Of a stretch of 64,000 nt of DNA, positions 11,837 to 50,038 are shown piece by piece. The position numbers and the translations under genes were made by a program. Source of the stretch: Pseudomonas baetica. GTDB taxonomy: Bacteria; Pseudomonadota; Gammaproteobacteria; Pseudomonadales; Pseudomonadaceae. The notes below the pieces were generated by a model. It saw only the letters and a list, made by a program, of their open reading frames with translations, did not search any database and was not told the origin of the DNA. How positions within the stretch are numbered: the stretch's first letter is position 1; each line of letters starts with the position of its first letter. The DNA lies in contig NZ_PHHE01000001.1 in assembly GCF_002813455.1 (NCBI RefSeq), positions 2,480,001 through 2,544,000 on the forward strand. Direction: 5' to 3'.

Positions 11837-11868
11837 GGCCGGGGTGCCGCAAGATTTGTTCTGGGCAA

Positions 11869-32101: not shown

Positions 32102-32136
32102 CCAGCCCAAACCCACTAAAACCAGAGGCCACCCTC

Positions 32137-33046: not shown

Positions 33047-33073
33047 GTGCGCTTCATTTCAGGAGTACACACA

Positions 33074-33649: not shown

Positions 33650-33848
33650 GGTTTTCCAGCCGCCTCAACTGACGGCGCACCCGCCGCCGTCAGTGCCTCT
33701 TCGGGTTCCCTTCACGAGCCCGTCCGTCGCCTGTGCACGTCATTTACGCGCAGTTGCAATTTTCCGATGGTATTGGACATATAATCGCCGCCGATCCGGC
33801 ATGACGCCTGATCGCGCTACGCTATGTTTGACCATCGAGACGGACCTT

Positions 33849-34259
33849 ATGTATATCGGCAAAGCCGCCCAGCTGTCGGGCACCACAGTCAAAAGCATTC
33901 GCCATTACGAAGAAATCGGCCTGTTGCCAGAGCCCAAGCGTGAAGGCAAATACCGCATCTACAGCCAGCAAAGTGTCGAGGTGTTGACGTTCATCAAGTG
34001 CGCCCAGCAACTGGGTTTCAAGCTCAAAGAGCTGCAGGTGATCCTCAACAACTACCGCGGCGACGAATTCCCATGGGACATGGCGCAACGAGCCATTGCC
34101 GAAAAAAAAGCCGAACTGGTGACCCAGATCGGCGATTTGCAGCAGTTGCACGACGGCCTCGAAGCGTTCGAAAACAACCTCAACGATGCGCGACAGGAAT
34201 GTCAGTTCGAGCGCATTGCCCGTTATGGCGAAAAAAACCCGGGCACTACCCTGAACTGA
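33849..34259 (+). CDS. MerR-family transcriptional regulator
   Basis: A 136-residue regulator. The N-terminal winged helix has YIGKAAQLSGTTVKSIRHYEEIGLLPEPKREGKYRIYSQQSVEVLTFIKCAQQLGFKLKELQ, followed by a dimer helix (AIAEKKAELVTQIGDLQQLHDGLEAFENNL) and a short tail with one Cys (ECQF). The metal-binding Cys pair of CueR/ZntR is not present, so a drug-, redox- or lipid-type signal is more likely. It lies between the oxidoreductase gene and the 3' end of the biosynthetic operon, and matching promoters occur in front of both. A candidate own promoter, TTGCAA-N20-TATAAT, spans 33754-33785. Confidence 0.88.
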   Translation: MYIGKAAQLSGTTVKSIRHYEEIGLLPEPKREGKYRIYSQQSVEVLTFIKCAQQLGFKLKELQVILNNYRGDEFPWDMAQRAIAEKKAELVTQIGDLQQLHDGLEAFENNLNDARQECQFERIARYGEKNPGTTLN

Positions 34260-34328
34260 AAACCCTGCTGCGCCGCATGACCGGGTTCGCCTGTCGTCTC
34301 AGGGCAGGCGCGCCCGGTCGTTGGCGAG

Positions 34329-36950
34329 TCAGCCCGGCACCGCCTCCCCTTCTGTGCGCAGCGCTTGAACCGGCGCATGCACCGGCGTAATCGCCGCAAA
34401 GAACCACGGCGATACCAGCGTCACCAGGACAATGGTCATGACCCCGCTGGAAAACAGCGCCATCGCCACCAATGCGCCGAGATCGACAATCGGCTTGAAG
34501 TCGGAAAACAGCAGCGCCATGAAGCCCACGGAGAAGATCACCACGTTGATCACCGTCGAACGGCCGACGCTGTGCATCGCCTGCAAGATAGCCGCGTCGA
34601 TCTCAATGCCCTGCTGCACCAGCAACTTGATCCGCGACAGCAGGTGCACGGCGTAATCGACCACCCCGACCACGAGGAACGTCACCAGCGTCGTGCCGAT
34701 GTTCAGCTCGATGCCGAACAGGAACATGAAGCCGTAGACCGTCACCGACGTGGTCAGCAAGGTCAACATGCCGAGCACCCCGAGGCGTACCGATTTGAGC
34801 CAGTACATCATCATCAACGTGACGACCAGCAAGGCGAGGGAAAAACTCAGCACCTGACCCTGAGTGATTTCCTGCAACACCCCGGTCCAGATCAACGGCG
34901 TGCCGGCGTGGGTCACCTCAAGGTTGGCCGGTTTGTTCACCAGTAGCCAGGCGTCTAGGCGGTCGAGCATGCCCTGATAGTCGCTGGCGACCGACGAGGT
35001 CATGGTGTACAGGGTCAGGGCCTTGGAGAAGTCGGCATTGAGCACGTTGTTCAGGTCCGAACCGCCACCGTTTTCGAACAGCATCACGTGCTGCTCGATC
35101 AGCGAATTGCCCGGCACTTCAAAGCGCTCGATCTGCCCGTCATCATTGACCGACGTTACTTTCTCCACGGCATTCGGTACCCGCAGATATTCCGGGTTCA
35201 TGTCGTTGAGCACCAGGTTCATGCGCTTGACGTAAGTCGCCAGCGAGTAGCCGTAACTGACGTTCGGCTGCTGTTTGATGAAGTGGTCGAGCTTATCGAT
35301 GAACTGCACCACTTCGGTGGTCAGCACGCCGCGTGGTTCTTTGCTGTCGATGGCGATCCAGCCCGGCGCCGTGCCCGCTACTTTGGCGTGGTTGATGAAC
35401 TGATCGGACACGCGAATGTGGCTTTCCGGCTTGAAGTAAGCAATGCCGGAGTCTTCAATATCGACGCGGAAGGTGAACACGGTGGCCAGTGCCAGCAACG
35501 GCAGCATGACCATCAGGATCGGTTTGCGAAAGCGGATCATCCAGGCACAGAACGCCACCAGATACCGCGAGATGATCGATTCCTTGTGCACTTCAGCCTT
35601 GGCCTGCTGCGGCTGATCCTTGCCCCAAATGGAAATCCACGCCGGAATCAGCAACAACGAAATGATCAGCGCCGCGGTCAGACCGATCGACATGAACACG
35701 CCGAAATTGCGGATGCTGACAATGTTGTTGGTGGTGGAAATCATGAACGTGGCGATGGTCGTCACGGTCGTCAACACCACCGGCACCACCATCAAGCGCT
35801 GGGTTTCGCGGTTGGCCTCACGATTGCTCTTGCCCGCGTTTTTCTGCTCGTAATATTCAGCCATCACATGGATCGCATCGGAGCAGCAAATGGTGAACAG
35901 GAACACCGGCAGCACACTGGTCAGCAGGTCGAACGGCACCCGCAACAGCGCCATCAGGCCCAAGGTCCAGATGGTGCAGAACAGAATATTGAACAGCGGC
36001 AGCAGCACGCCCAGTGGTTTGCGGAAGAAGAAAATCAGCAGCAAGGTAATCAGCAAAAACACGATCGGGAACAACACCGCCAGGTCGTGATCGATGATCT
36101 CCTGCTGCGCGGCGATGAAGATCGGCATGCCGGCAATGAAGATTTCGTCCTTGTACTCCGGGTGCTCGGCCTGATACTGCGCGACGATGCCGCGCACGAT
36201 CTGATAGGCGCGCAATTGCGCCTGGGCGTCGTCCTGCTTGGTGCCGAGTTCAGCCACCAGCATCGCGACTTTCTTGTCCTTTGACACCACCCCGTCGACC
36301 ATCAACTCGTTGCCCATGATCTGCGACTCGACCAGCGCCGGGTCCATGTCATAGGCATTGAGGGTTTTGTGGATCAACAACTCGCCGTCGTCGGTCAGGA
36401 CGATGTTTTCCAGGTCGCCCATCGAGGCCATTTCGCGGATCGGGTTGATCCGCTCGGCGAGAAAGGTCAGGAACAGCTGATCATGGGAATCCCAGTTCTG
36501 GCTCTGGGCATGATCACGCAAGGCCTTGGCGTTGGCGTAATCGTTCTGCGAAAAACCACCCTCGAGAATGTCCCGGGTCAACAACTGCGCACGACTGTCG
36601 TCCGGGTGCCGGGCAACGATCTGCGCCAACTGATCCTTGTCGGCATCGTTGGCCAGGATCATCTTGCGCACCGACTGCGACATCGAAAACAGCGCGTTGA
36701 GCGTGTTTTTGTTGAACACCGTTTGCGGGTTGTTCAGCGCCACCATCACCGAGTCGAACGTGCCGGTGAACTCACCCTGCAAATCGATGATGGTCTTGCG
36801 CGCCGGGTGGCTTTCCTTGAGCAGATAAGGGTTGGTGTCGGACACCAGCGCGCCCAGCGTATAAGTGAAATACGCCGTAATCGCCACCAGCAGGAAAACA
36901 ATCGCCCGCGCATAGCGCTCGACGAAATTCAGATATCTTTCCATGATCAT
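34329..36950 (-). CDS. MMPL/RND-superfamily lipid exporter of the biosynthetic operon
   Basis: An 873-residue inner-membrane protein with two repeats, each with one helix, a large periplasmic domain and five further helices (about residues 17-35, 270-450, 478-495, 700-860). The fourth-helix region VFLFTICCSDAIHVMAEYYEQK and its partner TFLVVGVVDYAVHLLSR hold the acidic residues used for proton coupling in COG1033/HpnN-type RND proteins. Members export hydrophobic molecules such as hopanoids or mycobacterial lipids. It is the last gene of the operon, 27 bp after the LolA-like gene, and most likely moves the pathway product out of the inner membrane. Confidence 0.88.
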   Translation of the reverse strand: MIMERYLNFVERYARAIVFLLVAITAYFTYTLGALVSDTNPYLLKESHPARKTIIDLQGEFTGTFDSVMVALNNPQTVFNKNTLNALFSMSQSVRKMILANDADKDQLAQIVARHPDDSRAQLLTRDILEGGFSQNDYANAKALRDHAQSQNWDSHDQLFLTFLAERINPIREMASMGDLENIVLTDDGELLIHKTLNAYDMDPALVESQIMGNELMVDGVVSKDKKVAMLVAELGTKQDDAQAQLRAYQIVRGIVAQYQAEHPEYKDEIFIAGMPIFIAAQQEIIDHDLAVLFPIVFLLITLLLIFFFRKPLGVLLPLFNILFCTIWTLGLMALLRVPFDLLTSVLPVFLFTICCSDAIHVMAEYYEQKNAGKSNREANRETQRLMVVPVVLTTVTTIATFMISTTNNIVSIRNFGVFMSIGLTAALIISLLLIPAWISIWGKDQPQQAKAEVHKESIISRYLVAFCAWMIRFRKPILMVMLPLLALATVFTFRVDIEDSGIAYFKPESHIRVSDQFINHAKVAGTAPGWIAIDSKEPRGVLTTEVVQFIDKLDHFIKQQPNVSYGYSLATYVKRMNLVLNDMNPEYLRVPNAVEKVTSVNDDGQIERFEVPGNSLIEQHVMLFENGGGSDLNNVLNADFSKALTLYTMTSSVASDYQGMLDRLDAWLLVNKPANLEVTHAGTPLIWTGVLQEITQGQVLSFSLALLVVTLMMMYWLKSVRLGVLGMLTLLTTSVTVYGFMFLFGIELNIGTTLVTFLVVGVVDYAVHLLSRIKLLVQQGIEIDAAILQAMHSVGRSTVINVVIFSVGFMALLFSDFKPIVDLGALVAMALFSSGVMTIVLVTLVSPWFFAAITPVHAPVQALRTEGEAVPG

Positions 36951-36977
36951 GCGGTTCCAGGTCGTCGGGGTCGGCGC

Positions 36978-37814
36978 TTAGCGGGCAGACACGGCAAAGT
37001 CCGGCAGGTCACCGGTTTTCAGCCCGCGTTTGATGGCGGTCTGGGTGAAGAGGCGGTCTTCCAGAGAGACGTTGTACTGCAACTGGTTGAAGCGCATTTC
37101 CGAGCGCGTGCCGTCGATAAAGTGTTCGGTCTCACTGAGCACGATGCTGTCGATCGAATCGATGGTCGCGACTTTCTGCGTGCGCATCTGCTTGATCAGC
37201 ACACCTTTGACGTCGAAGAAGTCCTGACGCATGACCAGGAAATTCTGCTTGTCGATCCACACCTTCAGCTTGTTGTAACCGGTCTTGGCCAGCACTTCGG
37301 GGGAGGCGGGTTCGCGCTCGATCACGTAGCAGTCGCGGCCCTTGATCTGTTCTTCGCCGACGAGTTTCTGCGAGTAGTCCTTGACGCGGATCTTGTCCAG
37401 ATCGGCGTACGAGTACTCACTGCCCATGAACGAGCCGCGCTTGTCGGTGGTGGAGATGCGGCGGGTTTGACGGCTGACCGGCAGGTACATCCACTGGCTG
37501 TCTTCCAGGCCGAGGGGTTCGTGCGGGTTTTCGATGTGGAAGGCCACGTCACGGACATCGGTCGGCGCGGAAAAGTACATGCTGAACTTGTCGCTGTCCG
37601 GGTAATCCTTTTGCAGGTAGGTGAACTCGCGAACCCGGGTATTGCCTTTCTTGTCATGCAGGATCAGCGAAACCTGGGACATGAAGCTGTTCCCGTCATT
37701 GCGATCGCGCACCTGACGGATGATCTCATCGGCATTGCCGGCCTCGGCGGCACTGGCGCAGGCGCTGCCGAGGATCAGTGCGGCGGTGGTCAGACTTTTC
37801 AAAAACGGCAACAT
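36978..37814 (-). CDS. LolA-like outer-membrane lipoprotein-sorting/lipid-carrier protein
   Basis: A 278-residue exported protein. Start ATG at 37814 (MLPFLKSLTTAALILGSACASA) with AAGGAAG upstream; longer readings enter the preceding gene. After the signal peptide the domain matches COG2834-type proteins that accompany RND lipid exporters: MSQVSLILHDKKGNTRVREF, GLEDSQWMYLPVSRQTRRIS, GSFMGSEYSYADLD and CYVIEREPASPEVLAKTGYNKLKVWIDKQNFLVMRQDFFD. The fold is an open barrel that carries one hydrophobic molecule through the periplasm. It fits as shuttle between the RND exporter and the DUF1302-type barrel encoded on either side. Confidence 0.85.
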   Translation of the reverse strand: MLPFLKSLTTAALILGSACASAAEAGNADEIIRQVRDRNDGNSFMSQVSLILHDKKGNTRVREFTYLQKDYPDSDKFSMYFSAPTDVRDVAFHIENPHEPLGLEDSQWMYLPVSRQTRRISTTDKRGSFMGSEYSYADLDKIRVKDYSQKLVGEEQIKGRDCYVIEREPASPEVLAKTGYNKLKVWIDKQNFLVMRQDFFDVKGVLIKQMRTQKVATIDSIDSIVLSETEHFIDGTRSEMRFNQLQYNVSLEDRLFTQTAIKRGLKTGDLPDFAVSAR

Positions 37815-37873
37815 GACAACTTCCTTTTCGTTGGATGAATGCACCTGCGCACGAGAGCGGCAGGCGTGATGGG

Positions 37874-39172
37874 TCAGAACAGATAACCGGCCGACAGCCG
37901 CACTTGATCGCGCTTGCTGTACTCGCCAAAAGTCTTCTCGGGCTTGCCGAAAAACACGTCGACTTCCAGGCCGAGCTTGATGTAGTCGACCGGCTTGTAG
38001 GTGAAGATGCCTTGCAGCAAGGCGTCGTCCTGAAACGGCGGTGAGCCACCGACCACCAGACGACTCTTGAGACGGTCCTGCCAATGGGTGCCCTCGGCCG
38101 ACAGGGTGAACAGCGGCTCATACTTGTCCTGCAACATGCCGTCCTGCCAGTCGAGCAGCACTTGTTCCTGCCATTGCGCGGAGATCAGCCAGTCGCGCAG
38201 CAGGTAGTCGACACCCAGCAGCGACTTGACCATGGGCGTGCTGTCGGCACCGTAGGCTCGCGTCGGATTGGTCACGCGCCAGTTGTCGAAATACGCGACC
38301 TCGCTGCGCACCACGATGCTGTGCCCGGCGTCGATCGCCAGCCCGGCACCGCCCATGGTGTAACGGGGAAACTGCCGTTCCAGCCGCGTGCGACCGTCGT
38401 CGGCGAGGCCTTCGACCGCGTACACAGGATCTTGCTGACGGGCGCTCAAGGCTACAAAACTGGTGTCCACCGCGCCGATCCGGCCATTGGCGCTCAGGCC
38501 ATAGGAATAGCCCTTGTCGCCGTCATAACCGGGCTTGGAGTCGAGCAGGAAATACTGCGGATCCGGCGTGGCAAACAGCGGCGCGGCAAATTCACTGCCC
38601 TCCACCGGCGCCCGGTTTTTCAAGAAGTCAGTGATCCACAGCGCCTCCAGTTCCCACTCGCCCACCGGTTGTGCAAAACGCACCATGGGCACGGCGATGC
38701 GACTGTCTTCGAGCAGCGGCGTCAGGCCATCGCGATAGTCCAGCGGGTTGATCTGATCGAGCACGCGCAATTCATCCGCACGGCCCCAGACCACTTGCTG
38801 CCAGCCCACCGTCACTTCGCCGTCACCCAGCGAATGGCCAACGTAGAGGTGCCGCCAATCGGCGTCGAAACGGTACTTGTCCCGCGCCCGTTCGCTGTAC
38901 GGATTGTTGCCGTCGTAGCGCGCGTCATAACGCACGCGGCCCTTGGCCTTGTAGTAACCGCCCTCCCAGTTGTCTTCCAGATTGGCCTTGAAATACACGG
39001 CTTTTTGCGTGACCTGATCGTCGCCGTGCAGGCGCAAAGCCGTGGCCACGCCGACTTCACCGTCGGCGTAATCGGGCTTCAGATCATCGATGGTCAATTC
39101 GGCCATCGCGGTGGGCGCAGCCATGCACGCCCACACCGCATACACGATGTGACTGTTGTGAAATCGAGGCAT
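37874..39172 (-). CDS. DUF1302-type outer-membrane protein
   Basis: A 432-residue exported protein. Signal sequence at residues 1-24 (AVWACMAAPTAMA). The body is a chain of amphipathic beta-strands with DUF1302-like motifs: GWQQVVWGRADELRVLDQINPLDYRDG and WLISAQWQEQVL, ending LSAGYLF with a terminal Phe as outer-membrane barrels do. It is shorter than the DUF1302 protein at 11869. It begins 2 bp after the upstream SDR gene stop and precedes the LolA-like gene, so it is the likely outer-membrane component for the same product. Confidence 0.75.
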   Translation of the reverse strand: MPRFHNSHIVYAVWACMAAPTAMAELTIDDLKPDYADGEVGVATALRLHGDDQVTQKAVYFKANLEDNWEGGYYKAKGRVRYDARYDGNNPYSERARDKYRFDADWRHLYVGHSLGDGEVTVGWQQVVWGRADELRVLDQINPLDYRDGLTPLLEDSRIAVPMVRFAQPVGEWELEALWITDFLKNRAPVEGSEFAAPLFATPDPQYFLLDSKPGYDGDKGYSYGLSANGRIGAVDTSFVALSARQQDPVYAVEGLADDGRTRLERQFPRYTMGGAGLAIDAGHSIVVRSEVAYFDNWRVTNPTRAYGADSTPMVKSLLGVDYLLRDWLISAQWQEQVLLDWQDGMLQDKYEPLFTLSAEGTHWQDRLKSRLVVGGSPPFQDDALLQGIFTYKPVDYIKLGLEVDVFFGKPEKTFGEYSKRDQVRLSAGYLF

Positions 39173-39174
39173 CG

Positions 39175-39939
39175 CTACATTCCCAACCCGACACCGCCAT
39201 CGATCACCAGACTCTGCGCGGTCACCCCGCCAGCCTCGGGGCTGGCCAGGTAACGCACCATCGCCGCCACTTCTTCGCTCTGGATGAAACGGCGCATCGG
39301 CAGTTTCTTCTTCGCGTTGCGAACGATCTGTTCCTGGGTCAAACCGGCAATCGCCGCTTGCGTCGCCAGTTCACCCTGCAACATCGGCGTATCGATCCAC
39401 GCCGGCAGAATCGCATTGACGGTGATCTGCCGCGAAGCGAGATCCAGCGCCAGCGCCTTGGTCATGCCGACGATGCCGTGTTTGGAGGCGCAGTACGCGG
39501 TGTTGCGCACCTTGCCGGCACGGCCGAGGATCGACGACATGTTGATGATTCGCCCACGGTCGGGCATCAGCGCCAGGCACAACGAGGTCACGTAGAACGT
39601 GCCGTTGAGGTTGACCGAAATCACCTTGTGCCAGTTGTGCAGATCCTCCGGCTCGTTCTCGTTGCAGATGCCGGCACTGTTGACCAGCACATCAACGTAT
39701 TCGACTTGCGAACCGAGTTTCTTGAACAACGCCTCCATGGCCGGCAGGTCGGCAATGTTTGCTGCATGGGTTTCGACCCGCGCCTTGATCTGCTTCTGTT
39801 GCTCGTCGACCCAGCGTTGCAGTTCGGCCAGATCGAGATCCAGCAGGATCAGGCGATTGTCGGCGTCGGCGGCAAAGTTCTCGGCAACCGCGCGGCCGAT
39901 GCCTTTGGCCGCACCGGTGATCAGAATGGTCCGGCTCAT
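39175..39939 (-). CDS. SDR-family ketoreductase-like enzyme 1
   Basis: A 254-residue classical short-chain dehydrogenase. NAD(P) motif TGAAKGIGRAV (residues 8-18), NSAG (about 90), catalytic Ser in NMSSILG and the pair YCASKHG. The Asp-rich LLDLDLAEL after strand 2 suggests preference for NAD(H) over NADP(H). It resembles 3-hydroxybutyrate-dehydrogenase-type SDRs more than FabG. In this operon it could reduce a beta-keto or other carbonyl of the growing or released chain. Its start overlaps the stop of the FabG-like gene (ATGA). Confidence 0.85.
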   Translation of the reverse strand: MSRTILITGAAKGIGRAVAENFAADADNRLILLDLDLAELQRWVDEQQKQIKARVETHAANIADLPAMEALFKKLGSQVEYVDVLVNSAGICNENEPEDLHNWHKVISVNLNGTFYVTSLCLALMPDRGRIINMSSILGRAGKVRNTAYCASKHGIVGMTKALALDLASRQITVNAILPAWIDTPMLQGELATQAAIAGLTQEQIVRNAKKKLPMRRFIQSEEVAAMVRYLASPEAGGVTAQSLVIDGGVGLGM

Positions 39940-40673
39940 GGCATTTTCAACCCGCCGTTGACCGACAGGACCTCCCCGGTCAGGTACAAACCGCGATCGG
40001 CGAGGTACAGCACCGCTTCGGCAATTTCTTCCGGTTCCGCGTAGCGCTTGATCAGCAGACGCGACTGGATTTCTTCCTCCTGACTGCCGATCAGCGCCGT
40101 ACTCATCTCGGTCTTGACGATGCCCGGCGCTACCGCGTTGACGCGAATATTGCGTGGCGCCAGCTCCACCGCCAAGGCACGGGTCAACGATTCGACCCCG
40201 CCCTTGGCGGCGGCATAGTTGCTCTGCCCTTTGCCAGGCTTCTGCGCCGCCACCGAACTGATGTTAACGATGCAACCTTTGCGCTGGCGCAACATGCCCG
40301 GCACCACCTGCTGACAGCAAAGCATCGTGCCAATCAGGTTGGTCTGGATCACGTCGACCAGGTCGCGCGCCGACATCGTCGCCAGCAGACCGTCGCGGGT
40401 GATGCCGGCGTTGTTGACCAACAGATCGATACGCTGAAAATGCTGATCGACCCGCTCGAAAAACGCCTTGATGCTGTCGCCGCTGCTGACATCGCACTGC
40501 AATGCCAAGCAATCGATGCCCGACGCCTGAACTTCATCGCGCAAGGTCATTGCCGCGACTTCATCGCGCACGTAACTGAACGCGATCTGATAACCCGCCC
40601 CGGCCAGGGCCAGGACAATCGCCCGACCGATGCCACGACTGCCACCGGTCACCACTGCTACTTTATTCGGCAT
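39936..40673 (-). CDS. FabG-like 3-oxoacyl-ACP reductase
   Basis: A 245-residue SDR with all FabG marks: TGGSRGIGRAI (residues 9-19), NNAGITRDGLLATM, NISSVAAQKPGKGQSNYAAAKGG holding the catalytic Ser, Tyr and Lys, and the ending YLTGEVLSVNGGLKMP. The expected reaction is NADPH-dependent reduction of 3-oxoacyl-ACP to 3-hydroxyacyl-ACP, here on the ACP of this operon. It is a paralogue of the housekeeping gene, which sits in the fab cluster elsewhere. It is 9 bp downstream of the aminotransferase/reductase fusion gene. Confidence 0.88.
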   Translation of the reverse strand: MPNKVAVVTGGSRGIGRAIVLALAGAGYQIAFSYVRDEVAAMTLRDEVQASGIDCLALQCDVSSGDSIKAFFERVDQHFQRIDLLVNNAGITRDGLLATMSARDLVDVIQTNLIGTMLCCQQVVPGMLRQRKGCIVNISSVAAQKPGKGQSNYAAAKGGVESLTRALAVELAPRNIRVNAVAPGIVKTEMSTALIGSQEEEIQSRLLIKRYAEPEEIAEAVLYLADRGLYLTGEVLSVNGGLKMP

Positions 40674-40682
40674 GACCGTTCC

Positions 40683-43553
40683 TTAGAGCGAGTTGTCGGT
40701 TTTGAACTGCGCGAGGCTGAAGCCGTGAGTCGCCGCCAGTGCACGAATCTGCTGCACCTGCTCACGACTGATGTCGCCATAGGAGTAGTGCTGTTTCATC
40801 CCGGACAGGCCCATCAACACCGATTCGGCCATGCACGCGTACAACTGACCTTGCTTGAGATAGGCCCGAACGTTTTTCACCAGGCCATCGCCCAGCGGCG
40901 TCTGCACGATGCCGCCGTGCATGTAGAGCACGTCGGAGCGCTGACTGGCGAGGTTCTGGTCGACGTTCAGCGGCACGGCGATGTCGCAGATCACGCCGTT
41001 TTCGGCGAAGTGCTCGGCAAAGAGAAACGGCTGCGGTGCGTTCGCCGCGCAGAGCACGATGCGCGCCTGTTTCAGCACATCAAGATCGTTACTGACGGTG
41101 ATGAAGGCGTTCGCGCCCAAGCGTTCCTCGACCAGTTTCGCCACGCGCTGCCCCAGATCGGCACTGCTGCCATGGGCCTGCAACAGCGCATCGATGCCGT
41201 CGATTTTCTGCAGGCGACGGGCGAGGCGATCGTGCTCGGCCACGCCCTTGAGAATCGCGCGGGCGGCTTCGGCGTAAATCTGTTGCGCGGTTTTTTCCAG
41301 ACGACGCAGGGAACCGTCGCGGCCGCTACCGATGAGGATCAGGTGCTCGACACTGGTCGACAGCAGCGAGGCGTAGGTCGAGGCGATGTTGCCGGCGGCA
41401 CCGACCACCGCAGCGGTTTGCTCGCTCAGTTCCAGGCCTTGCTGCTTGCAGCCCTGTTCGATGGCTTCCAGGCCCATGCCGATGGTCAGCGCGTTACCGG
41501 AAGTCAGCGCCATGTCGGGAATCTGCAAGGCCTGGCAGTTGTTGGTGACGATCGAGGTGTACATGCCCAGCCCGGCGACGGTGTAGCCATCGGCGCGGGC
41601 GTCCTTGATGCGATTGCCGACTTCTTCGCGGATGGTTTGCAGATCACCGCTGGCGATGTACGCCGCCATGGCGTCGGAATCCATGCACAGCGGGTACAGG
41701 GTGAACTCCACGGCGGTGCCGAGTTTCGAGCGAATCAGCACCGGGCCGATCGGCGCGGCACGGCGCTCGGGGGCCATGCGCTTGATGAATTCGCGTTTCT
41801 GCTCAGCGCTCAGGGTCGACAGTGAAGGATCGACGTCACTGAGCATGTCCGAATCAATCAGATGGTTGATGAACGCCACGCGCGCCACCACGCGCACGTT
41901 CTCATCAGACTTTGGGAGGCTTTCATCCTCCTTGAAGCTGACCTCGCGGGCCGGCACTTGCGCGATGCTGTCGGCACACACACCGGCGGCCAGCGGGAAA
42001 GCATCGCGGCGGCGCAGCATGTCGCAGACTTTCTGCAAAGAACCGATCAAGCCGTCGATTTCTTCGAAGGTGATGCACACCGGCGGTTCCAGACGGATCA
42101 CATTGGCGTTGCTGCCCGACGGCGCCACGCGCAGGGATTCGAATTGCAGCAGGTAGCCGGCGATGATGTAGCCCAGCGCATCGTTGTACTGCGCCGATGC
42201 CTGAACCAGTGAGCTGGTGCCGGTCAGATCGTGCAGTTCGAAGCCCAGCAACAAGCCACGCCCGCGCACGTCGGCGATCACGTCCGGATAGGCCGCTTTG
42301 AGTTCCAGCAGCGAAGACTTGAGGTATTCGCCCTTCTTGTTCACGTCCTTGAGCATCGCGCTATCGTTCTCGAACAGACGGCGCAGGGCCGACAGGGCGA
42401 TATGGCAGGACGCGTCATCTTCGGCAAAGGTCGAACTGTGGATGTAGCTGAAATCGTTTTCGTAGTGGCTGGCGCGAATCACCGTCGCGGCAATCTTCAT
42501 CAGGCCACCGCCCAAGGCTTTCGACAGGCAGTAATAATCACCCTGCAAGTTGAAATGGCTGGCGCCGAGCAAGGTGCCGGTGCGGCCGAAACCGGATTGC
42601 ACTTCATCGATGATCAGCGGGCATTGCTGCTCGTTGCACAGACGCCGCAGGCCCAGATAGAACTCATTGGCGAACTCGTTGATGCCGCCCTCGCCCTGAA
42701 TCGGCTCCAGCAATACCGCCGTGATCGCGCTGAATGCTTCGCGGCGGACCTGCAGGGTTTCGCCGCTCCATTCCAGGCTCAGCCAGTGACGAATATGACG
42801 GGCCGGCAGCTCTTGCAATTGCTGGGGTTGCTGCGGGTCGATGAACTCGACGTTGAGGCCGAAACGGGCGAACGGCTTGCGGTACTGCTTGCCGTACGTC
42901 AGTTGAACGGTGTTCACCAGTTTGCCGTGAAAGCTGCCGCGCACAGCGAGGAACACCGGCTCGACATGCAGTTGCGCCAGGTTGTGCTGACGCACCGCTT
43001 CGGCCACTTGGCGCACGGTGACGCAGGACAGATTCTGCGGTAGCAGACCGGCGGGCAAATCGAGATCGTCGATGTCCAGTTCGACGTAAGCCTTGTCGCT
43101 GGCAACCAGATTGGCGAGGGCGAAATCACGCTCGTCGAATTGCTTCTGCAGGTTTTTCTGACGACGGTATTCGGCGTGCTTGACGGCGATTTCCACCGAC
43201 TCGGCGCCACTGTTGGAGAAGGTCGAGATGTAGCGTTCGCTGTTGTTCAGTTCACGATTGAACGCTTCACTGAGTTCACGCCCCAACTGCCCCGCCGCAC
43301 CGCGCACCGACATCTGCGCGTTGAACGGCACATCGGCACGCAGCAGGTCGACGAGTTGATCGACAAATTGCGGATCGTTGTGGCCATACAGCGCGGCGCC
43401 GTAACCGCCGAGGAAGTCAGTGACAGTCACCTCTTCGCCCTGGCGGTCGCGGTAAAACAGTTTGCTGCCCAGCGCTCTGTGGAACTGGCATTCGAGGCCC
43501 AGGGCCTGCATCAATTCTACGAATTTCGGCCGTACGTAATCGCGGTAATCCAT
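40683..43553 (-). CDS. Fusion of class III aminotransferase and acyl-ACP-reductase-like domain
   Basis: A 956-residue two-domain protein. Residues about 1-470 form a class III PLP aminotransferase: YGAALYGHNDPQF, NSGAESVEIAVKHAEYRR, EPIQGEGGINEF, IIDEVQSGFGRTG and the PLP lysine in CLSKALGGGLMK (about K344). Residues about 540-956 resemble the fatty acyl-ACP reductases of cyanobacteria: VAGLGMYTSIVTNN, LTSGNALTIGMGLEAI, the nucleotide motif AVVGAAGNIAST (about 713-724), MHGGIVQTPLGD and QLYACMAES with the presumed catalytic Cys near 905. Together they can turn acyl-ACP into an aldehyde and then a primary amine. The domain order matches the reductase/aminotransferase logic of tambjamine-type pathways. 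The acyl chain and amino donor are not known. Confidence 0.82.
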   Translation of the reverse strand: MDYRDYVRPKFVELMQALGLECQFHRALGSKLFYRDRQGEEVTVTDFLGGYGAALYGHNDPQFVDQLVDLLRADVPFNAQMSVRGAAGQLGRELSEAFNRELNNSERYISTFSNSGAESVEIAVKHAEYRRQKNLQKQFDERDFALANLVASDKAYVELDIDDLDLPAGLLPQNLSCVTVRQVAEAVRQHNLAQLHVEPVFLAVRGSFHGKLVNTVQLTYGKQYRKPFARFGLNVEFIDPQQPQQLQELPARHIRHWLSLEWSGETLQVRREAFSAITAVLLEPIQGEGGINEFANEFYLGLRRLCNEQQCPLIIDEVQSGFGRTGTLLGASHFNLQGDYYCLSKALGGGLMKIAATVIRASHYENDFSYIHSSTFAEDDASCHIALSALRRLFENDSAMLKDVNKKGEYLKSSLLELKAAYPDVIADVRGRGLLLGFELHDLTGTSSLVQASAQYNDALGYIIAGYLLQFESLRVAPSGSNANVIRLEPPVCITFEEIDGLIGSLQKVCDMLRRRDAFPLAAGVCADSIAQVPAREVSFKEDESLPKSDENVRVVARVAFINHLIDSDMLSDVDPSLSTLSAEQKREFIKRMAPERRAAPIGPVLIRSKLGTAVEFTLYPLCMDSDAMAAYIASGDLQTIREEVGNRIKDARADGYTVAGLGMYTSIVTNNCQALQIPDMALTSGNALTIGMGLEAIEQGCKQQGLELSEQTAAVVGAAGNIASTYASLLSTSVEHLILIGSGRDGSLRRLEKTAQQIYAEAARAILKGVAEHDRLARRLQKIDGIDALLQAHGSSADLGQRVAKLVEERLGANAFITVSNDLDVLKQARIVLCAANAPQPFLFAEHFAENGVICDIAVPLNVDQNLASQRSDVLYMHGGIVQTPLGDGLVKNVRAYLKQGQLYACMAESVLMGLSGMKQHYSYGDISREQVQQIRALAATHGFSLAQFKTDNSL

Positions 43554-43607
43554 GACAGTTCTATCCCTTAAGTAAAAAATCAGATGCGTTTCGTTGCGTG
43601 CCGACGG

Positions 43608-44816
43608 TCAGTCGGCCGCGTGAAATTCGAGTTGGTAACCGGCGCTGAAACCGTTGTCGTCGCGGTTGATCACCAGGCAATCGTGGAGCACGGCATCGCG
43701 CGGACCGCCGAGCACAAACGGCAGGTGCGCATCCAGCGGTTGCTGCAGACCACTGACCGGCGGGATGCTTTGCGCCTGCAAGACCTGCCGGGCAAAGATC
43801 AGATCAACCAGGCTCGGTGCACCACTTAGAATGCCGGTCAGCGGCGTGCTGCTGGTGATGTGCGCAGCGCCGGTTCGCGCCAGCGTGCGGGCCAGATCGG
43901 CATCCTTGTGCGGATCGCCAGTGGCGCTGCTGATCAGCAGATCCACCTGTTTGTCGGGCAGGTTCAGCGAGTCCAGACGCGGATGGGCGAAGAGCGCCGT
44001 CAGGCAGGTTTGCGGGCCTGCCGGCAGATCATCGGCGCGGCGCAGTACCAACGCTGCCGCGCCTTCGCCGGCAATACCACCACGGCCCTGGCGATCAAAG
44101 GCACGCAGGCTTGGCGTTCCTTCGGTACTGATCACCCCCGCCTCGGCCAGTGCGGCGAGCGCCAACGGATCCAGTTCACTGCCCGCGCCCACCACAATGG
44201 CCGCATCGATCCGACCGCTCTGCAACGCCGCGCAGGCTTCGCGCAGCGCCGCCAGGTTGCCGGCCACGCCTTGCATGTAGGCGTTGCATTCGCACTCAAG
44301 CTTCAAGGCCAGACTGACGACGCCGAGCAAACCGTTGCTCAGGCTTTTGAGGACCAGAAACGGATCGAGCGCGCGCTCCTGCAACACGCGTTTGGCCAGA
44401 CGCTGCATGTCGGCACCGCTCTCGGTCTGACACTCGTGCAACAGTTCGCCGTAGGACGCGAGCGAGGGATGGGTGTAACCGCCCTGGCAGCAATAGAGAC
44501 CAAAACGCACGTTGTCGCGGCCCGGTTCAAGCCCGGCCTCGGCCAACGCCTGGCGCACGGCACTGACGCCCCAGATCACTGCCGGCGGACAGTAGCGCTG
44601 GAGGTTTTGCGCAACGTCCTGACGGCTACGTTGATGGTCTCGATCAGCGATGTGTCCGAATGCAGTGACCCGCTCGCTGTGGAACAACGACGAGTTCAGA
44701 GGCGAGATCGCGCTACGTCCTTCGCGGGCCGCCGACCAGAAGCCCTCAACGCCCCAGCCGGTGGGCAACACACAACCGCTGCCGGCGATCGCTACACGTA
44801 CAGTGGCGTCAGTCAT
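43608..44816 (-). CDS. Degenerate ketosynthase, chain-length-factor-like (second pair)
   Basis: A 402-residue thiolase-fold protein. Start ATG at 44816 in a 4-bp ATGA overlap with the KS before it. The N-terminal half follows ketosynthases (VAIAGSGCVLPTGWGVEGFW, GVISTEGTPSLRAFDRQGRGGIAGEGAAALVL). At the nucleophile position it has LECECNAYMQG, keeping a Cys, but both catalytic histidines are lost: the NAHGTST segment is replaced by ISSATGDPHKD and the GH motif by TGILSGAP. This is the pattern of KS-beta/chain length factors that pair with an active KS. It probably dimerises with the product of the 44813-46108 gene. Confidence 0.75.
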   Translation of the reverse strand: MTDATVRVAIAGSGCVLPTGWGVEGFWSAAREGRSAISPLNSSLFHSERVTAFGHIADRDHQRSRQDVAQNLQRYCPPAVIWGVSAVRQALAEAGLEPGRDNVRFGLYCCQGGYTHPSLASYGELLHECQTESGADMQRLAKRVLQERALDPFLVLKSLSNGLLGVVSLALKLECECNAYMQGVAGNLAALREACAALQSGRIDAAIVVGAGSELDPLALAALAEAGVISTEGTPSLRAFDRQGRGGIAGEGAAALVLRRADDLPAGPQTCLTALFAHPRLDSLNLPDKQVDLLISSATGDPHKDADLARTLARTGAAHITSSTPLTGILSGAPSLVDLIFARQVLQAQSIPPVSGLQQPLDAHLPFVLGGPRDAVLHDCLVINRDDNGFSAGYQLEFHAAD

Positions 44817-46108
44817 TGTCCATGCTCCCGATATTTGCCAAGGGCCAGCGAGGTATTGAGGCCACCGAAACCGAAGGAATTGCTCAACGCGTAATCCACT
44901 CGGCGGCTGACGGCTTGACCGGCGCAGTAATCCAGATCGCACTGTTCGTCAGCGTCATGCAGGTTCACCGTGGGTGTGACCAGATCGTTGAGGCAGGCCA
45001 ACGCGGTGACGATGCATTCCGGTGCGCCAGCCGCGGCGATCAGGTGACCGAACTGTGATTTGTTGGCGCTGACGGCCAGGGTTCGATAATGCTTGTGCTC
45101 GGCGAACACACTTTTGATCGCCAGGGTTTCGGCGACGTCATTGAGTGGGGTCGAGGTGCCGTGGGCGTTGATCAGATCAATCTGCTGCGCGCGCAAACCG
45201 GCGTCATCCAGCGCGGCCTGCATCGCCAGTGCCGCGCCACGTCCTTCCGGTTGCGGTGCGGTGACTTTGTAAGCGTCCAGACTGCTGCCGAAACCCAACA
45301 CTTCGGCATACGGCGTGGCGCCACGGGCCAAGGCATGTTCGAGGCTTTCCAGCACGACGAAACCACCACCCTCGCCGGCAATCAGACCGCTGCGGTCACG
45401 ATCGAACGGACGGCACAGATCCGCGCCCCAGCGCTGCTCGCTCGACGCGGCACCGAGTAAATACAACGCGGCCATGGTGTCGAGGTTGAGCACCGAGTCG
45501 GCGCCACCCGCCAGCGCAACGCTGACTTCTCCGCGACGAATCATCTGAAAGGCATTGCCGATGGCTTGTGAAGCGCCGGCACAGGCACTGCTGATGTTGA
45601 TCACCGGCCCTTCACAACCCAGGTCGTCGGCGATTACCCGCGCCAGACGGTCGTTGCTCTGACGCAGCGAGCCATCGGCATTCACTTGCCCGGCCCGCGA
45701 CATCAGGTACGACCAGCTCGGGGTGCCGCCATTCGGGGCTTCGCTCAGCAGCATGTCGGCGAGCATGTGCTGCGGTGCTCCCGAGGCACACAGCACCGCC
45801 GCGCCCCGCAACTGTTCTGGCTGCAAGCCGCTGTCACCGACTGCCTGCGTGGCAGCCACCCAGCCAAAGCGACTGCGCTTTTCCAGCGGCATCGTCCAGG
45901 CCGGATGGCTTTGCAGTTTTTCCGGCAACAGGCGCATGTCGACAGGCGCTGCATAACGCACCGCGAACGAGGCCTCTTGCAGGTCGTCCGGCTGCCATGG
46001 CCGTACGCAATGTTCGGCGCCGAGCATTTTTTCCCAGAGGGTCTGCCATTCGAAACCGAAACCGGTGACGGCGCCCATGCCGGTGATCACAATCCGTGTC
46101 GCACTCAT
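44813..46108 (-). CDS. Beta-ketoacyl-ACP synthase, active (second pair)
   Basis: A 431-residue FabF-type ketosynthase. The full Cys-His-His triad is present: SSACAGASQAIGNA (Cys about 175), INAHGTSTPLND (His about 313) and SANKSQFGHLIAAAGAPE (His about 353). The end NSFGFGGLNTSLALGKY is the normal KS C-terminus. It should carry out decarboxylative condensation of malonyl-ACP with an acyl chain. It overlaps both neighbours by ATGA, which indicates tightly coupled synthesis with the degenerate KS genes on each side. Confidence 0.9.
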   Translation of the reverse strand: MSATRIVITGMGAVTGFGFEWQTLWEKMLGAEHCVRPWQPDDLQEASFAVRYAAPVDMRLLPEKLQSHPAWTMPLEKRSRFGWVAATQAVGDSGLQPEQLRGAAVLCASGAPQHMLADMLLSEAPNGGTPSWSYLMSRAGQVNADGSLRQSNDRLARVIADDLGCEGPVINISSACAGASQAIGNAFQMIRRGEVSVALAGGADSVLNLDTMAALYLLGAASSEQRWGADLCRPFDRDRSGLIAGEGGGFVVLESLEHALARGATPYAEVLGFGSSLDAYKVTAPQPEGRGAALAMQAALDDAGLRAQQIDLINAHGTSTPLNDVAETLAIKSVFAEHKHYRTLAVSANKSQFGHLIAAAGAPECIVTALACLNDLVTPTVNLHDADEQCDLDYCAGQAVSRRVDYALSNSFGFGGLNTSLALGKYREHGQ

Positions 46109-47163
46109 GCGTGCTTCTCCATGGTTTCACTGGCCAACAGCAATGCGCCCCAGTGACCGGCGCGAGTGTGGCTGACAAGCAACGTGTAGCCCGGCGTCGC
46201 CGCGACTTCACGGCTGAGGTGCAAGGTCAGTGCGACCTCTGTCAGCAAGGCGCTGGCGCCCAGTTCACCGGTCATGGCGCGAGTGCTGCGAATCTCGCGC
46301 GGGAAAGCTTCGAGCAACTTCATCACTTGCCCGTCAGCGCAATTGCCGACGATATGCTCGACGTCGCCGACCCGCAGTTTCTCGACACTCAGGACCTGGT
46401 CGATCACGCGCCGACCCACCGCCACAGACCGCTGTGGATCGGTGCTGTAACCACGGGCAAACCCGGCAATGCGCACGGCGTGTGCCGCACCCGGCGGGGG
46501 TGTCGACGCCAGCAGCAGCGCGGCGGCGCCCTCACCGAAAATCGGTTCTCTCGCCTGATCGGGCTCGCGCAGGTACAGGGCAGGGGTCAGGTTCGGACTG
46601 CTGCTGACCACCAACGCGGCGTCGGCATGCCGCTCGCCGATCTGCTGGCAGGCCTCGATCAGCGCATCCAGCCCGGCATTGTCCTGGGAACAAAATCCGC
46701 CCATTGGCCCATGGCATTCGAGCGCTTCAGCCACATACGCCATCACGCTGCTGTTGAGCAGGGTCAGCGCATGCAGGGGCGGCGTGTTGGCCAACAATTG
46801 GCTGAGTTGTTTGTGGGGCTGTTCGATGATCGCCTGCACCGCATCCCAGCAAGGACTCGGCGCATCGACTTCGGGAATGGCCGCTGTCAGGGCAATGCGT
46901 GACGCAGGCAATTGCAGCGCCGCCAGTGCCGGCGCCAGCCGTGCGGCGCAATGCAACAGGCGCAAGCCCTGCGGTTCGACGCTGCGCTGGATCTTGCGAT
47001 CAAACAGGTCACTGGCCAGTCGCGGCGTCGGCAATGCAAATGCCTGACGCTGTGCGTCAAAGGCCAGCGGTTGCGCCGCGCAGGGCGTGCCGAGCAAGTC
47101 AGCGCAATCACTGCCCGCCACATTCAGCACCGCAGCGGCATTCAGGTAGATGGCTCGGTTCAT
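46105..47163 (-). CDS. Degenerate ketosynthase-like protein (first pair)
   Basis: A 352-residue protein that keeps the thiolase fold only in outline. It starts AIYLNAAAVLNVAGSDCADLL and ends YTLLVSHTRAGHWGALLLASE, in place of the usual NSFGFGG ending. The nucleophile region reads MGGFCSQDNAGLDALIEA, and neither HGT nor GH histidine motif is present; IFGEGAAALLLAS is the best-kept KS motif. It is about 80 residues shorter than a full KS. It is most likely a partner subunit that sets chain length or recruits ACP for the KS encoded 1 bp upstream. Confidence 0.7.
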   Translation of the reverse strand: MNRAIYLNAAAVLNVAGSDCADLLGTPCAAQPLAFDAQRQAFALPTPRLASDLFDRKIQRSVEPQGLRLLHCAARLAPALAALQLPASRIALTAAIPEVDAPSPCWDAVQAIIEQPHKQLSQLLANTPPLHALTLLNSSVMAYVAEALECHGPMGGFCSQDNAGLDALIEACQQIGERHADAALVVSSSPNLTPALYLREPDQAREPIFGEGAAALLLASTPPPGAAHAVRIAGFARGYSTDPQRSVAVGRRVIDQVLSVEKLRVGDVEHIVGNCADGQVMKLLEAFPREIRSTRAMTGELGASALLTEVALTLHLSREVAATPGYTLLVSHTRAGHWGALLLASETMEKHA

Positions 47164-47164
47164 G

Positions 47165-48439
47165 TCATGCCCTCCCCAAAACCAGCGAGCTGTTGATGCC
47201 GCCGAAGCCGAACGAGTTGGACATCACCACGCTGATCGGCTGTCGCACCGGCTCGCTCAAGAACTTCAGCGAAGGGTATTCGGCACGCTCGGGGTCGTAA
47301 TTCAGGGTCGGCAACAGCACACCGTCACGCAGGCTCATCAGCGACAGCACTGCTTCGATCGCGCCACTGCCCGCCAGCGAATGGCCGATGGCGGACTTGT
47401 TGGCGGTGAAGGTCATGAAATCCTGGCAGCCGTCGAACAGACGCTGCAGCGCCAACGCTTCACAACTGTCATTGGCCTGCGTGGAGGTACCGTGGGTGTT
47501 GACGTGTTGCACGGCGCTGCGCAACAGCCCGGCATCTTCGATTGCTGCTTCCATGCATTCCTCGTATTTACTGCCATCGCGGCTGCTGGAGGTCATTTTC
47601 TGCGCCTCGCAGACATTCGCGTAACCCAACACCCGGCCCAGTAGCGCAGCCTTGCGCCGTTGTGCGTGTTCAGCGGATTCGAGAATGACCATCGCCGAGC
47701 CTTCGCTGAGGACAAAACCGCTACGGTCCGGCATGAACGGGCGGCTTTGTTCGCTCGCCGGCAAGTCGGCCTGACAGAGCGCGCCAAGGCTGTTGAACAT
47801 GTAATAAGGCAGTTCGTTGGCCATCAGTTCGACGGCGCCGCAGATAGCCAGATCGATCTCTCCGCGCTCGATCGCCCGGTAAGCGCTGCCGATGGCCATG
47901 GTGCCGGCGGCACAGGCATCGGAATGGGTCGAGATGTGATCGCGGATGCCGAGCCAATCGGCCAGGTGTTGTGTCTGTTGATCGACCCGCCGGGTGAAAG
48001 TCGCGCTGGACGGTGCCGGACTGTCCAGCAGACGATCGAGGTCGACGCGTCCGGCCTCATCCATGCAACGGCTGATCCGCTGCAGATCGTGGCTGTCGGC
48101 ACAGTACTTGTTGGCGCCCAGAAACAGACCGCTGCGACTGTGAGCAAAGTCTGCCGGCGTCAAGCCGGCGTGCTCCAGCGCCTGCCGGGCAACGTACTCG
48201 GCCAGCACACTTTGCCGTGGGTGCAGCGCCGCGTTGCCGCCGAAACCGGCCTCGATCCGCTGCCACTGCGTATCGTCGATAAATCCGGCTGCGCTGTTGT
48301 TGAATCCCAGCGCCTTGAATCGAGGATGTTCGCGGACACAGGATTGCTTCCGGCAAATCCGCTCGAACAACGTGGCAGCGTCCAGCGCCATGGGCGCCAC
48401 CAGACCGAACCCGCTCACATAGACTTCTCGTGCCCGCAT
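47165..48439 (-). CDS. Beta-ketoacyl-ACP synthase, active (first pair)
   Basis: A 424-residue FabF-type ketosynthase with all catalytic parts: HSDACAAGTMAIGSAYRAI (Cys about 173), VNTHGTSTQANDS (His about 314), TANKSAIGHSLAGSGAIE (His about 352) and the C-terminal MSNSFGFGGINSSLVLGRA. It differs from housekeeping FabF in its N-terminal half (RKQSCVREHPRFKALGFNNSAAGF). It follows the ACP gene by 8 bp and could start the chain or take the first elongation rounds, with the second pair extending further; that division of labour is a guess. Confidence 0.9.
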   Translation of the reverse strand: MRAREVYVSGFGLVAPMALDAATLFERICRKQSCVREHPRFKALGFNNSAAGFIDDTQWQRIEAGFGGNAALHPRQSVLAEYVARQALEHAGLTPADFAHSRSGLFLGANKYCADSHDLQRISRCMDEAGRVDLDRLLDSPAPSSATFTRRVDQQTQHLADWLGIRDHISTHSDACAAGTMAIGSAYRAIERGEIDLAICGAVELMANELPYYMFNSLGALCQADLPASEQSRPFMPDRSGFVLSEGSAMVILESAEHAQRRKAALLGRVLGYANVCEAQKMTSSSRDGSKYEECMEAAIEDAGLLRSAVQHVNTHGTSTQANDSCEALALQRLFDGCQDFMTFTANKSAIGHSLAGSGAIEAVLSLMSLRDGVLLPTLNYDPERAEYPSLKFLSEPVRQPISVVMSNSFGFGGINSSLVLGRA

Positions 48440-48447
48440 GAGAACTC

Positions 48448-49017
48448 CTACACCGCTTCTTTGGCGTGAGTGGTAACAAACTGCTCAACCAATTGACGGG
48501 ACACTTCATCGCCATCCGCCGGCACCAGGCGCGCACTGCACGCGCCACAGACCACTTGTTGGCGCTCGTTCAGCACCGCCTGGTGAGCATTGCAATCCGG
48601 GCAGGTCGCCGGCAGGTAGTTGAAGAGATCGCGGCACTGGTTGGCCCAGTTACGCACGGTGGTCGCGGCGAACACCTGAGCCGGTTGCATGCCCGCCTTC
48701 AGTTGATCCGGGGTGTAGGCGCTCAGGCTTTGCTCAAGCAGGCGCTTGCCGCTTTCGGTAATACGACCGTTGGCGAGAAACTCGCTGGCATCACCGCAAA
48801 CCGTCAACGCATGATCAAGCACGCTGGTTTTCGGCAGTGTGCAGCCATATTGGCGGCCCAGCTGGAAGCTCAGGTCAACGATGTCCAGCGAGTCGGCACC
48901 GAGGTCTTCGACAATGCTGCTGTTTTCTTCGATGTCATTCGCATCCATCACCAACAGCTGTGCGAGGATTTCGCGAGTGCTGGCAACGACATGTTCCAAG
49001 TCCAATGGATTGTTCAT
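48448..49017 (-). CDS. Acyl carrier protein with C-terminal zinc ribbon
   Basis: A 189-residue protein, first gene of the operon. Start ATG at 49017 (MNNPLDLEHVVASTREILAQL) with AGGGAGA 7 bp ahead; an upstream in-frame codon would place the MerR-type promoter inside the gene. Residues 1-85 are a carrier domain with GADSLDIVDLSFQL; Ser43 is the expected phosphopantetheine site. A helical linker follows, then a zinc-ribbon-like unit with Cys pairs CPDC (139-142) and CGAC (157-160), and a helical tail. ACPs of normal length are about 80 residues, so the extension more than doubles it. No phosphopantetheinyl transferase is encoded nearby. Confidence 0.85.
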   Translation of the reverse strand: MNNPLDLEHVVASTREILAQLLVMDANDIEENSSIVEDLGADSLDIVDLSFQLGRQYGCTLPKTSVLDHALTVCGDASEFLANGRITESGKRLLEQSLSAYTPDQLKAGMQPAQVFAATTVRNWANQCRDLFNYLPATCPDCNAHQAVLNERQQVVCGACSARLVPADGDEVSRQLVEQFVTTHAKEAV

Positions 49018-49102
49018 TTCTATCTCCCTATATGTCGTGACTACTTCATGAATTCGACTTATGAAAAGTAACTTTTCCCACAGCAACTTCTCACGCGGCG
49101 GG

Positions 49103-49134
49103 AATCTAAACTCTGCCCTTAAGGGGAGAGTCAA
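49103..49134 (-). promoter_or_regulatory. MerR-type promoter of the biosynthetic operon
   Basis: On the minus strand: TTGACT (49134-49129), 20-bp spacer CTCCCCTTAAGGGCAGAGTT, TAGATT (49108-49103). A dyad CTCTGCCCTTAAGGGGAGAG covers 49111-49130 with only one mismatched base pair position. An over-long spacer filled by a dyad is diagnostic for activation by MerR-family proteins. The start codon of the ACP gene is 86 bp downstream. Confidence 0.78.
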
Positions 49135-49530
49135 CGAACTATTCAAGGTTTTTTTACAACTCGAAAAAAGTCTGCAAAACCCCACAGACACCGCACCTCC
49201 TTGGTGCGGCGAACGACTTATTTACTTAACAAAGACGGGGTATGGTGGGGCGCCCGCGCTATCGGCAAGGCTGACTATCGAAAGCAACTAAGGACGCAAC
49301 GGAACCGACGTACTAAAAGCAAAAACCAGACAAGTAAAATAGTTATAACTTCATAACCTTTGTTGTAGATCAGTACTGCCGTTAATTGATTTTGCTGGAA
49401 GGTTTACGCCTCCATCCGAAAAACGCTGGCAGCGTTTATGGATATCTAAATGTCGAGCACAGACATCTGGGCCAAGGCTCGGCGCTATAGGGTGCAGCTT
49501 CCGTTTGATCGCCTTGTCTGGAGCCGACAC
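49135..49530. other. AT-rich intergenic region between the operon promoter and the cupin gene
   Basis: No gene is recognised here. The stretch is clearly richer in A and T than its surroundings. It contains a short palindrome GTTAT-N6-ATAAC (49342-49357) that could be an operator, and an imperfect hairpin AACGCTGGCAGCGTT (49422-49436). It must hold the cupin promoter and any upstream activating sites of the minus-strand operon. Confidence 0.5.
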
Positions 49531-49915: not shown

Positions 49916-49943
49916 AAACAATATCAGATACACGCAATGCCCT

Positions 49944-50032: not shown

Positions 50033-50038
50033 GTTTGT

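Follow-up and report, generated by a model that had tools for sequence, protein, structure and literature searches.

In this study, we analyzed a window of 64,000 nucleotides from Pseudomonas baetica (contig NZ_PHHE01000001.1, positions 2,480,001 to 2,544,000), which contains an operon of eleven minus-strand genes and, beside it, two plus-strand genes that we call merR and nqo (Table 1). By order and predicted function as published, the eleven genes match kecA to kecK of Pseudomonas koreensis CI12, the cluster behind the antibiotics koreenceine A-D of soil Pseudomonas (PMC6498172): an acyl carrier protein (ACP), a ketosynthase (KS), a KS-beta, again a KS and a KS-beta, the aminotransferase-reductase fusion, two reductases, two envelope proteins and the transporter, all co-directional. 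The cluster shares one 16.4-kb block with merR and nqo, and nearly the same MerR-type operator is predicted before kecA and before nqo. We consider it likely that MerR turns on both transcription units together.

Table 1. Genes and putative control sites of the kec locus, in coordinates of the window.
Feature	Position	Strand	Basis
Inserted block with nqo, merR and kecA-K	33009..49449		16.4 kb; empty-site boundaries of L141
Putative promoter/operator of nqo, MerR-type, laid out as at kecA with a 19-bp spacer (8/11 pairs)	33015..33046	+	27 bp before ATG
nqo, Flavodoxin_2-fold NAD(P)H quinone-reductase-like	33074..33649	+	Pfam 140.6 bits; closest solved structure, judged by sequence: 3lcm (94.3 bits)
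merR, MerR-family regulator, convergent with kecK	33849..34259	+	Pfam MerR_1 63.4 bits, cut-off 21.6
kecK, MMPL/RND transporter	34329..36950	-	Pfam MMPL 94.1 bits
kecJ, LolA-like protein, likely periplasmic	36978..37814	-	Pfam LolA_like 169.7 bits, scanned as 36978-37874
kecI, DUF1302 protein, likely outer-membrane barrel	37874..39172	-	Pfam DUF1302 67.5 bits
kecH, second reductase of the short-chain dehydrogenase/reductase (SDR) type	39175..39939	-	Pfam; NCBIfam FabG-like under cut-off
kecG, ketoreductase corresponding to PpFabG4 (PP_2783) of P. putida	39936..40673	-	419.5 bits over 245/245 residues vs PDB 9ng1
kecF, class-III aminotransferase (Lys345) fused to acyl-ACP-reductase-like domain (Cys907)	40683..43553	-	Pfam Aminotran_3 211.6 bits
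kecE, degenerate ketosynthase, chain-length-factor-like	43608..44816	-	Pfam N-terminal KS only
kecD, active ketosynthase (C176, H316, H355)	44813..46108	-	Pfam; triad 23/23
kecC, degenerate ketosynthase, chain-length-factor-like	46105..47163	-	Pfam just under cut-off; triad residues 0/3 in 23/23
kecB, active ketosynthase (C176, H316, H353)	47165..48439	-	Pfam; triad 23/23
kecA, acyl carrier protein (Ser43) with C-terminal CxxC...CxxC zinc-ribbon-like extension	48448..49017	-	Pfam PP-binding 37.8 bits
Putative MerR-type promoter/operator of kecA: TTGACT, 19-bp spacer within palindrome (10/11 pairs)	49103..49134	-	85 bp before ATG

The kec operon and the block that holds it

The eleven open reading frames at 34,329-49,017 are all present and follow each other with overlaps or gaps of a few to 59 bp, as a first-pass annotation made from the sequence alone had described. 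In operon order the gaps measure 8, 1, -4, -4, 54, 9, -4, 2, 59 and 27 bp, the fourth and ninth being computed with the preferred in-frame ATG starts of kecE (44,816) and kecJ (37,814). The start of kecE was thereby moved from 44,942 to a position where its ATG overlaps the stop of the preceding gene. The host genome is a single contig of 6.9 Mb in which the fusion gene kecF occurs once at full length.

The same annotation had called the operon uncharacterised. The gene order and roles match the published kecA-K cluster, however, the product class of which was described in 2019 (PMC6498172). The hint in the annotation at loosely similar clusters in P. putida was right: a 100% antiSMASH match is reported for PP_2777-PP_2784 (PMC12490732). 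The koreenceine cluster is deposited as MIBiG BGC0001987 and its family counts 664 members in a genome-mining preprint (PMC11888242). The operon is thus a further case of an already known cluster type, with the same eleven functions in the same order as in CI12, and the idea of a new product class was dropped in view of the published work (PMC10829540; PMC6498172). What had escaped the annotation are merR and nqo beside kecK, the operator common to both transcription units and a cysteine motif in the carrier protein.

The unit exceeds the published eleven genes. As published, the CI12 cluster ends at kecK, whereas here nqo, merR and kecA-K form one insert, because kec-less relatives join the same flanks directly. 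Among 14 stretches surveyed from relatives, the empty site is found in L141, L142, L147 and L150, where the left flank (ABM, tauE and lysR) is immediately followed by the right one, with genes for a cupin, a 3-hydroxyisobutyrate-dehydrogenase-like protein and an aldehyde dehydrogenase; in L152 tauE-lysR is directly followed by the cupin gene, the cupin being confirmed by Pfam. In L141 the left flank stops at window position 33,008 and the right flank resumes at 49,450, with 27 bp between them. Other relatives have nqo-merR alone between the flanks (L139 and L140), nqo-merR and then, in place of kec, other DNA up to the right flank (L144 and L145, from one genome, G029) or other DNA between the flanks (L149). 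Only the right side is seen in L143 and L151, L148 bears kec, and L146 is a different locus.

Of the 19 named loci, 12, among them L004 from P. mandelii, have both outer flanks of the window and the seven others (L006-L012) do not; the shared flanks fit the published clade A setting of the koreenceine cluster. In both sets merR and nqo, the genes next to kecK in the window, remain with the cluster. MerR is encoded in 17 of the 19 named loci and Nqo in the same 17; the stretch of L008 ends earlier and L012 has no local copy, and the genomes of both hold a MerR homologue on another contig (68-74% identity, L012 being at 68%).

The arrival of merR can be judged from the relatives with nqo-merR alone. 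Compared with the window, L139 and L140 show 54-57% identity for MerR and 72% for Nqo, while their flanking proteins reach 76-98%. In a MerR tree of 39 rows, from which one kec locus without nqo was excluded, the window falls in a clade of 33 rows (support 100/98) without the L139 and L140 copies, yet L139, L140 and L144 were flagged as long branches in this tree, which calls for caution; the nqo tree likewise sets off the syntenic kec-less copies only weakly (79/73). Because of the dip in identity between better-kept flanks and the clade in the MerR tree, MerR probably came with the block. A resident local merR-nqo copy was judged unlikely at this site on the same two grounds, long branches included, with the nqo tree weakly in line.

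Versions of one site with and without kec also exist elsewhere (for example, L126 versus L116 and L121). In L114 (G217, about 8,423-10,100), nqo-merR lies beside a kecK fragment of 18% of its length, which looks like the remnant of a kec cluster since lost, and the trees need 5 or 6 changes of the kec label. Hence kec has been gained or lost several times beside merR-nqo.

Predicted operators before kecA and nqo

The putative promoter of kecA, recognized by eye and then by computation, consists of TTGACT and a -10-like element whose 19-bp spacer holds an almost perfect palindrome, and the one of nqo is laid out alike, with similar letters. MerR regulators bind overlong spacers (19-20 bp) between the -35 and -10 elements that bear a palindrome (PMC9909328), and a palindrome within a spacer of such length is present at both kecA and nqo. 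A pattern derived from the two sites and allowed up to two mismatches has two matches in the 6.9-Mb genome, exactly those before kecA and nqo, and its reversed control has none. A pattern built from the window's own two sites, like a genus pattern built from loci overlapping the kec genomes, will find these sites partly by construction, which has to be held against the count.

Conservation across loci bears on the same sites. The box lies upstream of kecA in the window and in all 19 named loci, 79-89 bp before the start and with 0-8 differences from the window box over 32 positions, and it also precedes nqo, both in the window and in 17 of 17 named loci that hold the gene. Another 21 nqo genes were compared, from stretches of either kind, kec-bearing or kec-less: at the box, TTGACTCT stands in 20 of them and TTGACCCT in one. 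When nine diverse sequences out of 11 aligned were compared pairwise upstream of kecA, identity was 0.835 in the box versus 0.359 elsewhere, the best of all 32-base windows.

At genus level, 298 Pseudomonas genomes were surveyed. KecF has matches in 18 of them, 17 at an identity of at least 80% and one at 35%. A degenerate form of the box yields 42 sites in 29 genomes, its reversed control none; it is present in 16 of the 17 kec genomes, which overlap the loci from which it was built, and in 13 others. G165 is the kec genome without a match, its box being altered yet recognisable. Among the 13 kec-less genomes with the box, 12 have it within 1.2 kb of MerR, the exception being G067. MerR itself is encoded in all 17 kec genomes (66-100% identity) and in 102 of the 281 others. 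As Fisher p-values ignore kinship and the pattern was derived from related loci, weight was put on specificity instead. L146 (G028) encodes a transaminase-reductase fusion at 10,706-13,618 on the minus strand that is 34-35% identical; no other kec gene was found in the 20 kb, and this fusion probably belongs to a different pathway.

Since nearly the same operator precedes kecA and nqo, MerR is the likely common switch of kec and nqo. It would occupy the overlong 19-bp spacer of both promoters.

Enzymes, export proteins and neighbouring genes

Residue conservation was counted over 23 sequences, the window and 22 relatives. Pfam names three of the four ketosynthases above the cut-off, kecC falling just below. 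KecB and KecD keep the Cys-His-His triad in all rows. At the aligned catalytic positions KecC has no Cys and neither His in 23/23, and KecE is without the Cys and the second His in 23/23 and without the first in 22/23, one row having a His there. Two active and two degenerate ketosynthases, as annotated at first pass, are thus borne out by the catalytic residues. For KecA, the phosphopantetheine site is confirmed by Pfam with an invariant Ser43, and four cysteines of the zinc-ribbon-like extension (Cys139, 142, 157 and 160) are invariant in 23/23. The C-terminal region of the KecA model mostly has a predicted local distance difference test score (pLDDT) above 80; a fold search with this model gave no match at an E-value of 0.001 or better, the top rows being mostly ACPs with E-values from 0.38 up. 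The P. putida version is reported to have an unusual predicted structure and to support no activity with the enzymes tested (PMC12490732).

In KecF, Lys345, to which pyridoxal phosphate would bind, and the reductase residue Cys907 are invariant in 23/23, one of the features by which membership of the kec type was judged. Its best solved match is CrmG. The annotated aminotransferase is named by Pfam; the C-terminal half has no Pfam name above the cut-off and is read as an acyl-ACP reductase from the homologue described in P. putida (PMC10829540), the conserved Cys907 and a glycine motif. KecG has S140, Y153 and K157 as well as the pocket residues A142 and I185 as reported for PpFabG4, the P. 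putida ketoreductase whose structure was solved (PMC12490732); we infer that PDB 9ng1 is this protein, though deposited under another name. By its published description, the cluster PP_2777-PP_2787 of P. putida KT2440 (PpKTFusion, PpFabG4) is of the same type, our direct comparison covering KecG against 9ng1. KecG keeps the catalytic and pocket residues, and KecF has the same transaminase-then-reductase order with a conserved cysteine near the reported one.

Pfam further names MMPL/RND, LolA_like, DUF1302, two SDRs and the class-III aminotransferase, as proposed at first pass, and likewise names no dehydratase, enoyl reductase, acyltransferase or thioesterase among the eleven proteins. The 50 matches listed for the model of KecI are outer-membrane barrels, nearly all of them porins, and point to KecI as a likely outer-membrane barrel; the low confidence of the model (pLDDT 48.6), too weak to prove a barrel, tells against this reading.

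The kecA-K mutant of P. koreensis has lost four metabolites, the koreenceine peaks, and koreenceines A-C are tetrahydropyridines, kin of the hemlock alkaloid gamma-coniceine (PMC6498172). We infer the mapping of enzymes to steps from the published proposal. A C10 acyl starter from fatty-acid synthesis would be lengthened by two malonyl units on KecA, through the ketosynthase pairs KecB/KecC and KecD/KecE, and keto groups would be reduced by KecG and KecH. KecF would then convert the thioester into an aldehyde and transaminate it to an amine, which would close spontaneously on the retained ketone to give the tetrahydropyridine, and export would run through KecK in the inner membrane, KecJ in the periplasm and KecI in the outer membrane. 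The annotated route of condensation, reduction, release as aldehyde, transamination and export comes close to the koreenceine pathway, with a cyclic imine as the proposed end product in place of the free lipid amine.

Other product classes have to be weighed against koreenceine. Aryl polyene loci have KS, ketoreductase, ACP, LolA-like and RND parts in common with kec, a dehydratase and a thioesterase being defining. Neither is named by Pfam in the operon, nor is an acyltransferase, so that membership of the aryl polyene class was rejected here as it had been at first pass. For a tambjamine- or prodiginine-type cluster, it counts that the KecF fusion matches the PigE model in four stretches. 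PtTamH of tambjamine YP1 has the same domain order as KecF and turns an acyl thioester into an amine (PMC9594044). KecF, however, scores 264.9 where the NCBIfam cut-off for PigE is 850, by which it was discarded as a PigE equivalog; PigE of prodigiosin is a transaminase/thioester-reductase fusion too, but with reversed domain order (PMC10829540); and the PtTamH and PigE clusters make pyrrole products, unlike kec, no pyrrole-forming gene being named in the operon. The chance that either of these two classes applies is negligible. A linear lipid or polyketide primary amine exported as such, which was the first-pass reading, would agree with the P. putida counterpart PP_2782, a fusion enzyme that was purified and assayed and transaminates aliphatic aldehydes in vitro (PMC10829540), and with the related PtTamH, which makes fatty amines (PMC9594044). 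It is nevertheless very improbable, as the end products isolated from the matching cluster are cyclic imines (the tetrahydropyridines) and one chlorinated amide rather than a free primary amine, and the amine is proposed to cyclise onto the retained ketone without an enzyme (PMC6498172). Koreenceine-type products remain the preferred reading of the operon.

Around the block, palindromic extragenic elements were seen by eye near both of its ends (32,020-32,104 and 49,932-50,035), the right one having many matches across the host and related genomes. A second Flavodoxin_2 gene (30,077-30,667, minus strand; Pfam 115 bits) lies in the left flank, 2.4 kb from nqo, and has KefF as its best NCBIfam match, far below the cut-off. 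At 53,947-55,065 on the plus strand, a gene resembling S-type pyocins, in which Pfam names a Cytotoxic (PF09000) and a Pyocin_S domain, adjoins a low-GC stretch at 54-56 kb.

The candidate signal of MerR

The kec locus resembles the CueR, CadR, SoxR and NmlR/AdhR switches, whose spacers are 19-20 bp long, in the DNA-binding domain of its MerR and in the palindrome within a spacer of 19 bp between -35 and -10. The protein scores under every NCBIfam subfamily cut-off (CueR, CadR-PbrR, SoxR, ZntR and NmlR), the best being CueR with 75.9 versus 147.4, and NmlR reaching 43.4 versus 175; its naming as one of these metal or redox sensors was abandoned. In a comparison of 40 sequences from kec-bearing and kec-less loci, every one has Cys51 and Cys118. 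Cys51 lies in the DNA-binding domain and resembles NmlR/AdhR, NmlR having a cysteine near position 52. Metal-sensing MerR proteins carry a cysteine pair at the ends of a C-terminal loop (PMC9909328), whereas this MerR has a single cysteine in that region, Cys118, in addition to Cys51.

These features suggest a switch in which MerR senses an electrophile via a conserved cysteine and distorts the promoter, upon which kec and nqo would fire, with Nqo then serving to detoxify compounds of that class. An electrophile is the simplest guess for the signal because the partner is quinone-reductase-like, and koreenceine itself may be that electrophile. A more specific version, in which koreenceine is its own inducer, with the electrophilic product or its keto-aldehyde intermediate modifying Cys51 so that kecA-K and nqo fire, and in which this electrophile-stress switch travels with the antibiotic cluster as a unit of 13 genes, is a tentative proposal that we hold to be rather unlikely as a whole. 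Several published observations touch on it. Koreenceine is reported to cause redox-type stress in neighbours. It also has a strong influence on which genes are expressed in THOR, a model community of the rhizosphere, and the kec genes respond to conditions and partners. With F. johnsoniae present, kec genes drop on average 12.5-fold at low producer inoculum, which is compatible with feedback and no proof of it. The azoR gene of the producer falls more than 270-fold in its kec mutant.

Against these ideas, and in part against the common switch, a number of points have to be set. The authors themselves read the drop at low inoculum as a response to F. johnsoniae. The published azoR may be a different gene from nqo: the P. 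baetica genome holds five Flavodoxin_2 loci, two of which have azoreductase as their best NCBIfam match (below cut-off) and lie away from kec, and the box was not found at these two in the genome scan with up to two mismatches. MerR in 102 kec-less genomes means that its signal is probably not koreenceine alone. The gene arrangement is not uniform either, since merR of L012 is not beside kecK, its homologue lying on another contig, nqo of L010 is at the opposite end of the cluster, and the 20-kb stretch of L127 has merR next to kecK but yielded no nqo. Finally, merR is not among the genes reported from the screen of 2,500 transposon mutants by which kec was discovered (PMC6498172). Our literature search found no description of a regulator linked to the kec cluster, which is a weak negative as most subscription papers were outside its reach; two of the texts searched mention MerR along with koreenceine, once each, in one case within a reference title.

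The strongest competing explanation accepts the cluster as kec and takes merR and nqo for an unrelated, resident stress module next to which kec landed, the kecA box being bound by another regulator or merely inherited. Although merR-nqo without kec in many genomes and the repeated gain or loss of kec beside it on the trees would be expected under such a scenario, we regard it as improbable: the kecA box is nearly the same as the rare nqo box and the genome has only these two places, the kecA box has been kept even where the cluster occupies other places in the chromosome, and the MerR and Nqo of the window diverge more from the syntenic copies than the flanks do, so that both probably came with kec here. 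Joint control of kec and nqo by MerR is therefore retained as the likely reading of this locus.

A named regulator gene, a pair of operators and a companion reductase make the control of kec directly testable. If it is true that the switch senses the product, it would provide a simple account of the onset of koreenceine synthesis by feedback, together with a built-in route of self-protection.

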